From contig CALWLJ010000007.1 in assembly GCA_944381495.1 (NCBI GenBank), positions 62,001 through 126,000 of the forward strand: a DNA stretch of 64,000 nucleotides, written 5' to 3'. The notes beneath the pieces are model-generated. The model did no database searches and was not told where the DNA came from. It saw only the letters and a program-made list of their open reading frames with translations. Made by a program: the position numbers and the translations under genes. Numbering within the stretch: the first letter of the stretch is position 1; every line of letters starts with the position of its first letter. Shown here piece by piece: positions 51,108-56,057 of the stretch. The DNA is from an uncultured Mediterraneibacter sp. Lineage in GTDB: Bacteria > Bacillota > Clostridia > Lachnospirales > Lachnospiraceae.

Positions 51108-51121
51108 TAGGAGAGCAGCAT
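51107..51121 (-). other. Four-codon frame joining prs and the kinase by TAATG overlaps
   Basis: Reading the minus strand, the prs stop TAA shares its last A with ATG at 51121; this encodes Met-Leu-Leu-Ser and stops with TAA whose last A begins the kinase ATG at 51107. GGGGAG in the prs end lies 8 nt before the mini-frame. The same bases form a GGAGCAG/CTGCTCTCC hairpin that could mask the start. Confidence 0.5.
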
Positions 51122-52305
51122 TAAATCTGCTCCCCGTTTTTGTATTTTCTCAATACATTCTGTATTCTCTCATTTGGACTCAGGATAGAACTGATCGAGC
51201 CGTCATGATTCAGTGTATCAATGATCAAAGCGATATATTTGCTCATATCACAGCTGATATAGTAGGGCTTGGAAAGCAGTTCCGGTGTCTGATAGATCAG
51301 GTTAGTTGTCAGGATACCACTGATCAATCCTTCTTCATAAGCCTTATCAAACTTGTCTAACCCATTAGTAAACAGACCAAAAGTAGCTGCAGCAAAAATA
51401 CGTTTTGCTTTTCTGCTCTTTAACTCGGCAGCTACCTCAAGAATACTGTCGCCTGATGAAATCATGTCATCGATAATGATAACATCTTTCCCTTCTACAG
51501 AACTTCCGAGAAATTCATGTGCCACAATAGGATTTCTTCCATCCACGATCCTTGTATAATCACGGCGTTTGTAGAACATACCCATATCAAGGCCAAGTAC
51601 GTTAGCCAGATAAATTGCGCGGTTTGTTCCTCCTTCATCCGGGCTGATCGCCATCATGTGAGCACTGTCAATCTTAAGGTCGCTGACATTGCGGAGCAGC
51701 CCCTTGATAAACTGATAGGTAGGAGAAACTGTTTCAAAGCCACTGAGTGGAATTGCATTCTGAACTCTTGGATCATGAGCATCAAAAGTAATGATATTTT
51801 CAACTCCCATGCGTACAAGCTCCTGTAATGCAAGAGCGCAGTCCAGAGATTCACGGGAACTTCTTTTGTGCTGACGGCTCTCATAGAGGAATGGCATGAT
51901 GACGTTGATACGCCTTCCTTTGCCTCCGACAGCAGCGATGATCCTCTTCAGATTCTGGAAATGATCATCCGGAGACATATGATTGACCTGCCCTGTCAGA
52001 GAGTATGTGACATTGTAGTTGCAGACATCAACCATGAGATACAGGTCTTTTCCGCGGACAGATTCTTTCAGGATACCCTTTGCCTCACCGGAACCGAATC
52101 TCGGTACATCTGCGTTGATAAGAAAAGTATCCTTTTCATATCCGGAGAAAGCGATATCATCCCGATACTGGTGTGCACTTTCGTGGCGCCATTTTACAAG
52201 ATAGTCATCCACTTTTTTTCCGAGTTCCTCGCAGCCGGAGAGAGCAATCAGCCCCAGGCTTCCAACTGGAATATTCTCTAAGATTCTTTCTGTTCGACGT
52301 AACAT
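51121..52305 (-). CDS. prs: Ribose-phosphate pyrophosphokinase, long divergent form
   Basis: 394 residues, about 75 longer than the common enzyme. Two phosphoribosyltransferase-like halves are seen: INVIMPFLYESRQHKRSSRE corresponds to the flexible loop and ribose-5-phosphate region, ITFDAHDPRVQNAI to the pyrophosphate site, and VIIIDDMISSGDSILE to the PRPP loop (canonical enzymes have DDMIDTGGT). It would make PRPP for nucleotide, His and Trp synthesis. Start 52305 has GGGAGG upstream and lies 28 bp inside the dnaI-like gene. Function is likely but the loop differences leave some doubt. Confidence 0.87.
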   Translation of the reverse strand: MLRRTERILENIPVGSLGLIALSGCEELGKKVDDYLVKWRHESAHQYRDDIAFSGYEKDTFLINADVPRFGSGEAKGILKESVRGKDLYLMVDVCNYNVTYSLTGQVNHMSPDDHFQNLKRIIAAVGGKGRRINVIMPFLYESRQHKRSSRESLDCALALQELVRMGVENIITFDAHDPRVQNAIPLSGFETVSPTYQFIKGLLRNVSDLKIDSAHMMAISPDEGGTNRAIYLANVLGLDMGMFYKRRDYTRIVDGRNPIVAHEFLGSSVEGKDVIIIDDMISSGDSILEVAAELKSRKAKRIFAAATFGLFTNGLDKFDKAYEEGLISGILTTNLIYQTPELLSKPYYISCDMSKYIALIIDTLNHDGSISSILSPNERIQNVLRKYKNGEQI

Positions 52306-53300
52306 GAATTATCCTCCCTGTGTTTTAATTTGAGCTTGATACGTATATCATCACCGATTACTTTCAACAGGGTATAATTGCTTGTGATTCTGGAAAAGGC
52401 CCGTTCTGTATACAGATCGGCGATAGAGTCCAGAGAGAGATTTGTTGAAATAATCGTTGATTTCTTCTGAAGCAGCCTTTCGTTAATACATGTAAAAAAC
52501 TGAGATGAAATAAAACTATTGATATATTCGGTACCCAGATCATCAATAATCAAAAGGTCGCAGCTTAAAATATACTCGCTCATGTTCTTAGAGTCAACAT
52601 CTTTTTTATCAAAGGCATTTTTGGCAAGTACATTAAACAGTCGCGGTGCAGAAAAATACAGGACAGAATACTCCTTTTTTATAATTTCACGGGCAATGCA
52701 GGTGGAAAGATAGGTCTTTCCTACGCCCACGTCTCCATAAAAAAGAAGATTCCTGAAATCCTTCCCGAAAGTGTCTACGAATTCCTGGCAGATCCTCAGA
52801 GTTTCCTTCATCATGTCTCTGGGAGAACGACCGCTTTTATCACAGCGGCCGGAAGGATACAGATCCAGCCGAAAGTTTTCAAAGGATGCATCAGAAGTAA
52901 ACTGGCTGATGTTAGACTGATCATACAGCATCTGTATGATTGCTTTTTTAAAGCAGTGGCATTTTTCATGGCCAATATAACCGGTATCCTTACAGTCGGG
53001 GCAGTCGTAAACCGGCTCCAGATAATCTGCAGGAAAACCTGCGGATGTTAAGAGTTTCTGTTTACTGCTCCGAAGAATTGCCAGCTCTTCTTTTAAAGAT
53101 GCAACTGCTTTTGTGTCACCATTCAGAAGCTTTTTCCCATACTGGACAGAAAGGATGGAAATCGATTCGTCTAAAGTCTTAAATTCGGGAAGCTTCTTAT
53201 ACACTTCTTCATACCGGGCAGTCTGGATATTGTGATTTCTGAGCTGCTTCTTCTCGTACTCCCGCATGATCGCATAATATTGTGAATTTTTAAGCCCCAT
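52278..53300 (-). CDS. DnaI/DnaC-like helicase loader ATPase
   Basis: 340 residues. N-terminal part with a zinc-like CPDCKDTGYIGHEKCHC cluster (about 118-134) as in DnaI-type loaders; AAA+ domain with Walker A GDVGVGKTYLS, Walker B LLIIDDLGTEYIN and sensor I ISTNLS. It would load the replicative helicase at the origin or at restart forks together with DnaD. It is preceded by AAAGGAGC and follows the dnaD gene by 26 nt; its 3' end overlaps prs. Confidence 0.9.
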   Translation of the reverse strand: MGLKNSQYYAIMREYEKKQLRNHNIQTARYEEVYKKLPEFKTLDESISILSVQYGKKLLNGDTKAVASLKEELAILRSSKQKLLTSAGFPADYLEPVYDCPDCKDTGYIGHEKCHCFKKAIIQMLYDQSNISQFTSDASFENFRLDLYPSGRCDKSGRSPRDMMKETLRICQEFVDTFGKDFRNLLFYGDVGVGKTYLSTCIAREIIKKEYSVLYFSAPRLFNVLAKNAFDKKDVDSKNMSEYILSCDLLIIDDLGTEYINSFISSQFFTCINERLLQKKSTIISTNLSLDSIADLYTERAFSRITSNYTLLKVIGDDIRIKLKLKHREDNSCYVEQKES

Positions 53301-53326: not shown

Positions 53327-54448
53327 TTAATTACTGTTCAACAGCTGTTCTTCAAGAGCATCCATATCGTATCTGCGGCGCTCGAAATTGTTCATATTTT
53401 TCGCGCCATTCTTTGCCTTAACGATACTTTTTCTGGCAGACTTTTCTTTCTGATAGGCCTCGTCCAGTATTGAAATATCGTTAAGATGGCGGATGTTATT
53501 CTGACGCCATTTTGTCAGAATGGTATCCGCATATTCAAAACTTGGCTGATGAGTAGCAGAGATTGTCCTCCTGCAGGCCTCCTGGATGATCTCGGCGGAA
53601 AATCCATAATCCTCCACCCATTTTTTAATAAAAACCAGTTCTGAAGAAGCTGGACCGCGGTTTTTAATGCCGAATGCATTGAGAACCGCATAACAGTTCC
53701 GGTTGTAGAGAGCGGACGATTCCTTTGCCTGAGAAACGGTGCTGATGCCCTCCTCAACCCATGAAAAGGCTACTTTCTGTATATAGTGCATACTTTTGTG
53801 ACCGTTTTCCACGCAGGATTCAATCAGATATTCGATCAAGTCAGCCGACATATGAAGTGTGTCGTAAAAGTAAGTGATAGCATCCACGTCGGAGCGGCTG
53901 AGTGTTTTCCCAAGATACTGTTCCGCGATAAAAAGGAGTGACTTCAGCTCTTTCTGTGCGCGGAAAGCATCCATAGGAGCTGCGCTCTGTGCTGCCTGCA
54001 TGACTGCGCTGCCTCTGAGTGCAGAAGCCGATGTATTGCCTGGCGCTTCCGGGCCAGAATGCTCCTCAGCCGGTGATGATCCGGTTGCGGGATTATGTGC
54101 TTCCGCATGAAGTTCATCTGCTGCAGTTTCAGAAGAAGCAGTCTGACCGAGAGCTGTCTTCTGAAGCTCCAGGCCGGCAATACGGCCTTCTGCATCGTAT
54201 TCGAGCCGGAGAAGTCCTATGGACTCCCAGTACCGGAATGCGCGCAGAATATCCTTTTCTGTATTGTTGAGAGAATCTGCGATACTGGACACCGTAATAC
54301 TGGAACTGGGGTCGCCCAGATGACGAAGAAGGAAAAGATAAACTTTTACAAATTCCCCATTCGCTTCGGCCATATAGTTATCGATAAATTCGTTCGGAAG
54401 AAGAGTCGCATTTGCCTGAAATCTATTTTTTAATGTTAATGTCTTCAT
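53327..54448 (-). CDS. DnaD domain replication protein
   Basis: 373 residues from ATG 54448. N-terminal winged helix (FIDNYMAEANGEFVKVYLFLLRHLGDPSSSITVSSIAD; about 18-90), a variable Ala/Pro/Ser-rich linker (about 105-160), and two DnaD C-terminal domains with the YYDTLHMSADLIEYLIESC-like and WVEDYGFSAEIIQEACRRT elements; the second carries the YxxxIL-W motif (YADTILTKWRQNNI). DnaD helps recruit the helicase loader in initiation and replication restart. The 5' region contains a DnaA-box cluster. Confidence 0.92.
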   Translation of the reverse strand: MKTLTLKNRFQANATLLPNEFIDNYMAEANGEFVKVYLFLLRHLGDPSSSITVSSIADSLNNTEKDILRAFRYWESIGLLRLEYDAEGRIAGLELQKTALGQTASSETAADELHAEAHNPATGSSPAEEHSGPEAPGNTSASALRGSAVMQAAQSAAPMDAFRAQKELKSLLFIAEQYLGKTLSRSDVDAITYFYDTLHMSADLIEYLIESCVENGHKSMHYIQKVAFSWVEEGISTVSQAKESSALYNRNCYAVLNAFGIKNRGPASSELVFIKKWVEDYGFSAEIIQEACRRTISATHQPSFEYADTILTKWRQNNIRHLNDISILDEAYQKEKSARKSIVKAKNGAKNMNNFERRRYDMDALEEQLLNSN

Positions 54449-54557
54449 AAAATTAATCCCGCCCACTTTCTCTGTTCGTGCTTATGTTATACTTCAATAA
54501 TATATCATCATCTGGTTCTCTTAAAAAGCACTTTTTCGTGGGTAAATCCGGCTTTTT

Positions 54558-54631
54558 TGTAGATAACTATGTGTAGAAAATGTGGATAACCTGTGGAAAA
54601 CGTGAATAACTTCCGGTTTTAATGTGGAAAA
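54558..54631. promoter_or_regulatory. Cluster of DnaA-box-like sites upstream of dnaD
   Basis: Reading the plus strand: TGTAGATAA (54558), TGTAGAAAA (54572), TGTGGATAA (54581, perfect complement of TTATCCACA), TGTGGAAAA (54592), CGTGAATAA (54601) and TGTGGAAAA (54623). Six sites in 74 bp, all in one orientation, three of them fitting TTWTNCACA exactly. They lie between the murC stop and the dnaD start. Confidence 0.7.
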
Positions 54632-54671
54632 GTGCCTCTTTTCTATGCCGGAAACCTGACAGGGAACCCTG

Positions 54672-56057
54672 TCAGGCATTGGTGCGCAGGAGATCTTCCC
54701 CTATGTTGACAACATCACCCGCGCCCATGGTAATAACCACATCACCGGGAGCGCAATTTTCCTTCAGGAAGGCTTCAATCTCCTCAAAGGAAGGAAAATG
54801 GTGTGTGTCGGTTCCAAGTTTTGCAGTCTCTTCAGCCAGTGCTGCGGAAGACATCCCCAGTGTATCTGTTTCTCTGGCCGCATAAATATCAGCCAGTATC
54901 AGGTGGTCCACATGGGAGAGAGCCTCAGCAAATTCATGGAAAAACGCCTTTGTCCTGGAATAGGTGTGGGGCTGGAATACACACCACAGTTTTTTGTGGG
55001 GATAATGCTGGGCTGCTTTCAGCGTGGCCTTGATCTCGGTAGGATGATGTGCGTAGTCATCGATTACAGTTACGCCATTAAATTCTCCTTTATATTCGAA
55101 TCTCCTGTCTGTGCCGGAAAAGGAAAGAAGACCTTTCCTGATGACATCCATAGAGATGCCCAGAAGCTCAGCAACAGCGATGGAAGCAAGTGCGTTAGAT
55201 GCATTGTGCGCACCGGTAACGGCCAGGGCAATATGACCGGCAGACTCTCCGCCGCGCACCAGCTCAAAGGATACATGTCCGAGTTCATCATATGTGATGT
55301 CGGTTGCGCTGTAATCACAATCCTTTGAGGAGCCGTAAGTGATAACGCGGCAATTCAGTCCTTTGTAAATCTCTTCGCAGTTGTCAATATCTCCGTTAAT
55401 GACCAGCGTACCGTCCGAAGGAAGCAGTTCGGCGAATTTCCGGAAGGAATGACGGATATCGTCAATATCTTTGAAGAAATCCATATGATCTTCCTCGATA
55501 TTAAGGATTACGCCGATCTTCGGGAAAAAGTGAAGGAAACTGTTGGTATATTCGCAGGCTTCTGTAAGGAAGGTCTCGGAGGCGCCGACACGGATGTTGC
55601 CTCCGATAGCCTTCAGAATACCGCCGACGGATATCGTAGGATCCATGTCTCCGGCAAGAAGAATATGAGAGAGCATGGATGTGGTAGTTGTTTTGCCGTG
55701 AGTTCCGGACACGGCGATCGGCGTATCATAATTCTTCATCAGCTGCCCCAGCAGTTCTGCGCGTGACAGCATCGGAATCCCGCGGGCTTCGGCTTCTGCC
55801 AGCTCAGGGTTGCTTTTGTTGATAGCTGCTGTATATACGACGCATTGAATGTCATCGGTAATATTTTCCGCTTTCTGTCCGTAATGGATCAAAGCGCCCT
55901 CGGACGCAAGCTTGTCTGTGAGAGGAGACTCCTTTGAATCGGAGCCGGATACGGTAAATCCCTCCTCGATAAGTATCTCGGCAAGGCCGCTCATACTGAT
56001 GCCGCCGATACCGATAAAATGGATGTGTATTGGTTTTTTAAAATCAATCTGATACAT
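54672..56057 (-). CDS. murC: UDP-N-acetylmuramate--L-alanine ligase
   Basis: 461 residues, family-standard. N-terminal HFIGIGGISMSGLAEIL, ATP site VSGTHGKTTTTSMLSHI, central ILNIEEDHMDFF and C-terminal VIDDYAHHPTEIKATL, with final region VITMGAGDVVNIGEDLL. Adds L-Ala to UDP-MurNAc in peptidoglycan synthesis. AAGGGGA precedes the ATG. The stop is 40 bp from the DnaA-box cluster. Confidence 0.97.
   Translation of the reverse strand: MYQIDFKKPIHIHFIGIGGISMSGLAEILIEEGFTVSGSDSKESPLTDKLASEGALIHYGQKAENITDDIQCVVYTAAINKSNPELAEAEARGIPMLSRAELLGQLMKNYDTPIAVSGTHGKTTTTSMLSHILLAGDMDPTISVGGILKAIGGNIRVGASETFLTEACEYTNSFLHFFPKIGVILNIEEDHMDFFKDIDDIRHSFRKFAELLPSDGTLVINGDIDNCEEIYKGLNCRVITYGSSKDCDYSATDITYDELGHVSFELVRGGESAGHIALAVTGAHNASNALASIAVAELLGISMDVIRKGLLSFSGTDRRFEYKGEFNGVTVIDDYAHHPTEIKATLKAAQHYPHKKLWCVFQPHTYSRTKAFFHEFAEALSHVDHLILADIYAARETDTLGMSSAALAEETAKLGTDTHHFPSFEEIEAFLKENCAPGDVVITMGAGDVVNIGEDLLRTNA

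Follow-up and report, generated by a model that had tools for sequence, protein, structure and literature searches.

The window analysed here is a stretch of 64,000 nucleotides, which corresponds to C7:62001-126000, i.e. a section of contig C7, in a draft genome of 3.19 Mb. The named relatives of its DnaD protein assign it to the genus Mediterraneibacter, Lachnospiraceae, the closest being Candidatus M. stercoripullorum with 84 % identity. In all counts given below "family" denotes the family of the source genome, taken as Lachnospiraceae.

The gene dnaD (53327-54448, minus strand, ATG at 54448) encodes a primosome protein of 373 aa with a DnaD domain (models TIGR01446 and PF07261). It is followed on the same strand by a dnaI/dnaC-like gene for a helicase-loader ATPase of 340 aa (52278-53300). 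This protein is a DnaC/DnaI-type AAA+ ATPase with NF005304 PRK06835 as best model, while the dnaI model NF006505 scored 61.9 against a cut-off of 228. The frame of a prs-like phosphoribosylpyrophosphate synthetase (51121-52305, minus strand, NF005299) overlaps the end of dnaI by 28 bp. In the stretches around dnaD of the named relatives a dnaI match was present in 59 of 59 and a prs match in 58 of 59, on the same strand as dnaD. The upstream neighbour of dnaD is murC (54672-56057, minus strand), at the end of which a hairpin (54655-54676) is followed by TTTCC only. A terminator scan of 54300-54750 found none. Downstream of the murC stop (54672) and upstream of the dnaD ATG (54448), on the minus strand, lies the cluster of DnaA-box-like sequences at 54558-54631 that is characterized in the following. 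The DnaA protein of this genome carries the box-binding domain PF08299.

A row of DnaA-box-like sequences upstream of dnaD

A first-pass annotation of the window had described six DnaA-box-like 9-mers in one orientation. This description was correct: all six lie, without overlap, on the minus strand, three of them matching TTWTNCACA exactly and three differing by one base. Along the direction of dnaD these are TTTTCCACA (54631-54623, exact), TTATTCACG (54609-54601, one off), again TTTTCCACA (54600-54592, exact), TTATCCACA (54589-54581, exact), TTTTCTACA (54580-54572, one off) and TTATCTACA (54566-54558, one off). For the fifth box a one-off site is indeed present, but it is overlapped by TTCTACACA (54578-54570), which is likewise one off, and it is TTCTACACA rather than TTTTCTACA that constitutes the conserved register according to the alignment with relatives (see below).

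To judge the cluster against chance the window was compared with 200 dinucleotide-shuffled versions of itself. Counting boxes with at most one mismatch to TTWTNCACA, the real sequence reached a maximum of six non-overlapping boxes on one strand within 75 bp, three of them exact. In the shuffles the largest cluster held one box (2 shuffles), two (184), three (13) or four (1), but never more than four, in agreement with the earlier claim that the cluster is non-random. A chance origin of the cluster was thus ruled out by the shuffles. Over both strands the window contained 14 exact boxes, compared to a mean of 4.5 per shuffled window, and 166 boxes with at most one mismatch. The chance rate assumed previously, one perfect box in ~130 kb of strand, is an underestimate: at equal base use a motif with seven fixed bases and one W is expected once per ~33 kb. 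Over its 128 kb of strand the window holds 14, and the non-randomness of the cluster is unaffected by this correction. Pairs of directly adjoining boxes that deviate from TTATNCACATTATNCACA at no more than two positions occurred six times in the whole draft genome, two of them at this site, while the reversed control pattern did not occur.

The inner boxes belong to a conserved module in the genus

A DnaD search was positive in 56 of 58 genus genomes, and 58 loci were inspected, two genomes having two each. The alignment comprised 54 of these 58 loci, leaving out L005, L021 and L062 as near-copies and L007 as cut. Information content and distances were obtained from the 53 of 58 loci that contain TTATCTACA and 130 bases before it. 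From this a common core emerged, with the order TTATCCACA, 2 bp, TTCTRCACA, 3 bp, TTATCTACA, an A run, TTACCCACG, an A-run, CTTTTT and TGNTATATT.

In the source genome all elements of the core lie on the minus strand. Box 1 (54581-54589) has the consensus sequence TTATCCACA and a mean of 1.78 bits per column over the 53 genus loci. Box 2 (TTCTACACA, 54570-54578) follows after 2 bp with a mean of 1.74 bits, its register being set by the TTCTRCACA of the alignment. After another 3 bp box 3 (TTATCTACA, 54558-54566) reaches 2.00 bits per column and served as the anchor of the module. It is directly followed by an A-tract (54553-54557, 1.82 bits per column), which forms a run of six together with the last A of the box. 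Further downstream a degenerate but conserved fourth box, TTACCCACG (54537-54545, 1.71 bits per column), carries two mismatches to TTATCCACA. The conserved CTTTTT block seen in the alignment of the genus loci (54523-54528) occupies the -35 region and is a poor match to a -35 element. An extended -10, TGATATATT (54499-54507, 1.52 bits), which in the genus mostly reads TGNTATATT or TGNTATAAT, is found 59 nt from the start of box 3. The flanks of the module are not conserved: the information content was 0.28 and 0.13 bits in the leader and 0.40 in the bases immediately preceding box 1, and it fell to 0.06-0.07 in the more distant upstream part. Overall, the site thus presents three boxes pointing the same way at helical spacing, or four if the degenerate box is counted, together with an extended -10 and a poor -35.

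Box 3 was identical by letter in 55 of 58 genus loci, the remaining three having TTATTCACA or TTATCCACA, such that TTAT[CT][CT]ACA was found as box 3 upstream of dnaD in all 58 loci of the 56 genomes. At least one additional box was present in 57 of 58 loci, the exception (L007) being cut by a contig end. Box 1 or 2 had decayed in a few loci (L024, L030, L039, L055, L056), and in three others (L043, L059, L060) the box starts were 9 and 13 (or 13-like) apart instead of 11 and 12. The distance from box 3 to TGNTA was 59 nt in 49 of the 53 loci, whereas box 3 was anywhere from 106 to 539 away from the dnaD ATG and from 23 to 178 away from the murC stop. A constant distance to the -10 combined with variable distances to both genes indicates that the element is locked to the putative promoter and not to murC or dnaD. 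We note that the -10 was assigned from the alignment with relatives and not from the promoter scan. The latter provided a single site, the sigma-70-like TATTAT at 54502-54497 (minus strand), versus 1.1 expected from shuffles, i.e. no excess.

The three outer boxes of the source genome, TTTTCCACA (54623-54631), TTATTCACG (54601-54609) and TTTTCCACA (54592-54600), which together span 54592-54631 on the minus strand, are mostly lineage-specific. Among 54 genus loci that allowed this comparison, the source included, a box with at most one deviation was found at the same place in 9 (54592-54600), 3 (54601-54609) and 3 (54623-54631) cases, and all three together occurred only in the source genome and in L002 (G052). 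Any same-strand box within 45 bp before box 1 was seen in 20 of 54 loci.

As a separate observation, the dnaD leader (L003-L061) contains an attenuator-like hairpin with an exact stem of 7 bases and a T-rich tail in 40 of 58 genus loci by raw count. In 23 loci this hairpin has the form AAAGCGGA...TCCGCTTT. The source genome lacks it.

Occurrence of box clusters in the family and beyond

Within the family DnaD was found in 124 of 130 genomes (E <= 1e-20). Besides the locus of the source we examined 127 family loci, four of which were added from the class search, and 124 of them had murC upstream on the same strand. For this 124-locus set the dnaD starts were taken from N-terminal matches with a longer stretch. 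It supersedes an earlier estimate from partial DnaD matches, in which a score of at least 4 was obtained in 87 of 123 loci and in 0 of 1230 shuffles. The cluster score counts 2 for an exact box and 1 for a one-off box and requires at least two boxes within 50 bp. Scores of at least 3, 4 and 5 were reached by 111, 92 and 70 of the 124 murC-dnaD loci, compared to 22, 2 and 0 of 1240 dinucleotide shuffles of the same stretches. The 111 clusters comprised two boxes in 24 cases and three or more in 87. Among the named relatives at least three boxes were present in 56 of 59; L259 and Coprococcus comes (L267) were without a row and L236 was cut.

All 92 clusters with a score of at least 4 were located between murC and dnaD (with a tolerance of 20 bases at the murC end), and 91 of them run along the direction of dnaD. 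Where the gap between the two genes was 75 bp or shorter no cluster was found (0 of 7), while 111 of 117 longer gaps had one; the 13 loci of the 124 without cluster thus include 6 with a gap above 75 bp. The spacing varied across the family: a start-to-start step of 9 bp was observed in 86 of the 92 loci and a step of 11 or 12 in 35. After the boxes, 32 of the 92 family loci contain a perfect TGNTATAAT, which turned up in 2 of 460 stretches after shuffling; its distance to the reference box was 81-86 or 93-94 nt in 24 of these 32. A looser -10 match (at least 6 of 8) was present in 75 of 92 loci, yet also in 293 of 460 shuffles.

As judged by eye, some genera of the family have a doublet near the end of murC that provides the 5' arm of a hairpin resembling a terminator (ATCCACATG...CATGTGGATTTTTT), for instance in L111, L125, L136, L145, L151, L157, L158 and others. 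Also by eye, such loci (e.g. L111, L125, L145) have no clear -10 at a fixed distance, and a link to a promoter is not evident there. Because of these hairpin doublets, the two-box clusters and the differing spacing within the family, the lock to the putative promoter is shown by the alignments only in the genus and in a portion of the family. In one locus, L097 (G222), we noticed an in-frame stop codon within the aligned DnaD stretch.

Outside the family we inspected the 25 best-scoring dnaD loci from 12 families (158 of 196 class genomes had a DnaD match). Only one of these loci belongs to the same order. The upstream sequence of L321 comprised only 182 bases. None of the 25 contained a cluster, and none had murC upstream within the stretch examined. 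The array therefore accompanies the murC-dnaD arrangement, and the contrast between family and outgroup is confounded by gene order. The check set by the first-pass annotation, whether related genomes lack the boxes at this position, spoke for its reading inside the family (111 of 124) but against it outside, where dnaD also has another neighbourhood.

Relation to the origin and to DnaA

A search of the whole genome for the real oriC, as the first-pass annotation had proposed, revealed box-rich dnaA flanks on contig C8, apart from the box cluster on C7. On C8 the gene order is rpmH-dnaA-dnaN and each of the two gaps next to dnaA contains boxes, which is the usual layout of a bipartite origin. 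The cumulative GC skew, likewise proposed as a check, rose throughout the window with a plateau at 48-56 kb and without a turn near 54.6 kb. Given that dnaA with its box-rich flanks is found elsewhere and that the skew does not turn, the site upstream of dnaD is not the origin. The earlier suggestion of a secondary or back-up origin-like element at this place was also unsupported, and we regard it as exceedingly improbable. Its row of three boxes with a 2-bp and a 3-bp gap and a subsequent A-tract does resemble rows in the dnaA flanks of relatives. Against an origin function stand the separate contig of dnaA and the skew, which shows only a plateau. No run of DnaA-trio repeats was noticed after box 3 when the sequence was read by eye.

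The distance between dnaD and dnaN was computed for 11 genomes. In seven single-contig relatives it was 127-568 kb, i.e. 0.08-0.32 of a replichore, and on long contigs of further genomes it was 140, 260 and 669 kb. For G159, with a contig that starts close to dnaA, the value could not be used.

A sequence-only model of the module, R1, was built from the 54 genus loci. Applied to the own genome, it returned ten hits with dnaD ranking first (E 1.4e-25), the dnaA-dnaN gap second (E 0.02) and the gap between rpmH and dnaA in seventh place (E 3.2). When 299 genomes of the family were searched, each from a different genus, some hit at E <= 0.01 was obtained in 111, many of these hits being weak. The best 29 loci from other genera (one per genome, E <= 8e-6) consisted of 25 murC-dnaD gaps and 4 dnaA flanks and nothing else. 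Since R1 also picks up the origin region, DnaA is supported as the presumptive reader of the site, although any box-rich stretch would score as well. Furthermore, we measured box spacings in 28 dnaA-dnaN gaps from 30 genomes that had been selected by the quality of their dnaD hits or by completeness. The most frequent distances between box starts on the same strand were 12 (20 cases) and 11 (17 cases), the same as in the dnaD row of the genus.

A candidate DnaA-controlled promoter

From the sequence comparisons the site is a real and conserved cis-element and probably a functional DnaA operator. With good though not full confidence we assign it to a DnaA-controlled promoter driving dnaD-dnaI-prs, whichever the sign of the effect. 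At least two boxes adjoin the promoter, which is itself predicted from conservation. Among the options of the first-pass annotation a DnaA-regulated promoter was thus the one that is well supported, by the fixed box-to--10 distance, the conservation in the genus and the variant form in most of the sampled family genera; DnaA control itself we infer. The box gaps of 2 and 3 bp count for a DnaA operator as well, since they are those that E. coli DnaA prefers for box pairs in vivo according to ChIP-seq (PMC11317965). On the other side, the top 20 DnaA regions of B. subtilis in vitro, as given in Table 1 of PMC4447404, contain no dnaD, dnaB or dnaI site.

In the proposed mechanism boxes 1-3, the centres of which are located at about -93 to -70 relative to a presumed start near 54492, would be the place where a DnaA dimer or trimer nucleates. 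DnaA would then spread toward the degenerate box (about -50), which adjoins the weak -35, and the spread DnaA would act on RNA polymerase, more likely in an activating manner. The supply of DnaD and helicase loader would in this way follow DnaA activity. In B. subtilis DnaD inhibits cooperative DnaA binding in vitro (PMC13220808). We therefore propose that rising DnaD could strip DnaA from the dnaD promoter, which would close a loop.

Activation appears likelier than repression because the strong boxes are located upstream of the predicted promoter rather than on it, even though this preference is tentative and stays somewhat short of an even chance. As a sub-case of the same operator, DnaA could instead spread over the fourth box and the -35 and shut dnaD off when plentiful. 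The position of the fourth box next to the -35 region would fit this repressor version, for which the repression of dnaA-dnaN by DnaA in E. coli and B. subtilis provides a precedent (reviewed in PMC13220808). It agrees less well with the upstream placement of the strong boxes and with the combination of a poor -35 and an extended -10, which resembles activator-dependent promoters as far as can be judged from position. We thus consider repression rather unlikely, albeit a serious competitor. A titration site that serves as a sink for DnaA, like datA or the DnaA-box clusters of B. subtilis, with the promoter as a bystander, is improbable. What speaks for a sink is that the site, with its several boxes, lies in the origin-proximal part of the chromosome in the seven single-contig genomes (127-568 kb from dnaN). 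However, the distance from the origin is not fixed while the distance to the -10 is fixed in the genus, such that titration fits the promoter lock poorly, and boxes are absent where the promoter space is gone (gap of at most 75 bp, 0 of 7).

Least compatible with the data, apart from an origin, is an accident of a short repeat or of the murC terminator in which the 9-mers have no link to DnaA. In its favour is the doublet of some other genera, which provides one arm of the terminator-like hairpin near the end of murC. Yet the conservation in the genus is separate from the murC-end hairpin, the shuffles do not reproduce the cluster, and R1 retrieves dnaA flanks, which leaves this explanation very little probability.

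DnaA-controlled promoters as such are already known, and the addition made here is the proposed family-limited wiring to dnaD-dnaI-prs. One of the closest known cases is the sda promoter of B. subtilis. There, too, a box array lies upstream of the promoter, and activation as well as a strong preference for ATP-DnaA have been reported for sda (PMC4447404); the target gene differs, and sda has eight sites in 300 bp. For B. subtilis the same study describes eight high-affinity DnaA regions and, besides the activation of sda, an apparent repression of other operons by DnaA (PMC4447404). With the autoregulated dnaA-dnaN promoter and origin (oriC1, oriC2) the dnaD site shares the box consensus and the spacings of 12 and 11 bp, but it has no adjoining dnaA, few boxes in a single orientation, and a tie to the dnaD promoter. 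The double boxes of E. coli at purH, polA and mutH/DARS2 also have gaps of 2 or 3 bp (PMC11317965), whereas the dnaD site consists of three boxes with gaps of 2 and then 3 bp and has a helicase-loader operon as target. Replication genes under DnaA are likewise part of the Caulobacter DnaA regulon, whose members include the dnaB helicase and dnaQ with predicted boxes (PMC8203912). Caulobacter belongs to another phylum, and its target is the helicase itself and not DnaD and the loader. A report of DnaA boxes at dnaD in Clostridia was not found in the open-licence papers searched.

A search for YabA (PF06156), which like DnaD antagonizes DnaA, gave no match at E 0.001 in the source genome, which is one draft of 91 % completeness, while the controls B. 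subtilis and L. lactis were detected. One could imagine a circuit specific to Lachnospiraceae in which DnaA sets the supply of DnaD and loader and DnaD limits DnaA assembly, as a homeostatic stand-in for YabA; we regard this as a doubtful, though conceivable, extension. Little is known about initiation control in Clostridia of the human gut, and the regulators of B. subtilis should not be assumed there. With its conserved row of DnaA boxes, the predicted promoter upstream of dnaD and the loader gene offers a concrete and testable link between initiator activity and loader supply. The conservation of these docking sites suggests that DnaA, as the initiator of replication, controls the supply of its own partners. 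As the array is limited to a clade, the lineages that gained or lost it can be compared with neighbouring families in the way they regulate the loader.

A second box cluster on contig C8

The own genome contains a second DnaA-box cluster at C8:125348-125419 (L064, L287, L351), upstream of a gene at C8:125658-125864 that we take to be DUF1858-like. Its geometry is fixed: a box on the plus strand is followed 26 bp on by a box on the minus strand, 28 bp on by two abutting plus-strand boxes, and about 90 bp on by TTTTCGACA on the minus strand. An Rfam search with six loci, three from dnaD and three from DUF1858, gave no match at gathering score. The steps of the C8 cluster were constant within 1-2 bp, and the sites are embedded in a conserved non-coding block of ~270 bp with 66-75 % A+T. 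This block also contains TGTCGAA motifs, which resemble Spo0A boxes. Three exact boxes within 130 bp were present in 4 of 29 other family genera. In four genomes the cluster is located 65-89 kb from dnaN, and it may represent a titration or sda-like site. Wherever the upstream sequence of a genus locus was complete, all five sites were found (29 of 29).
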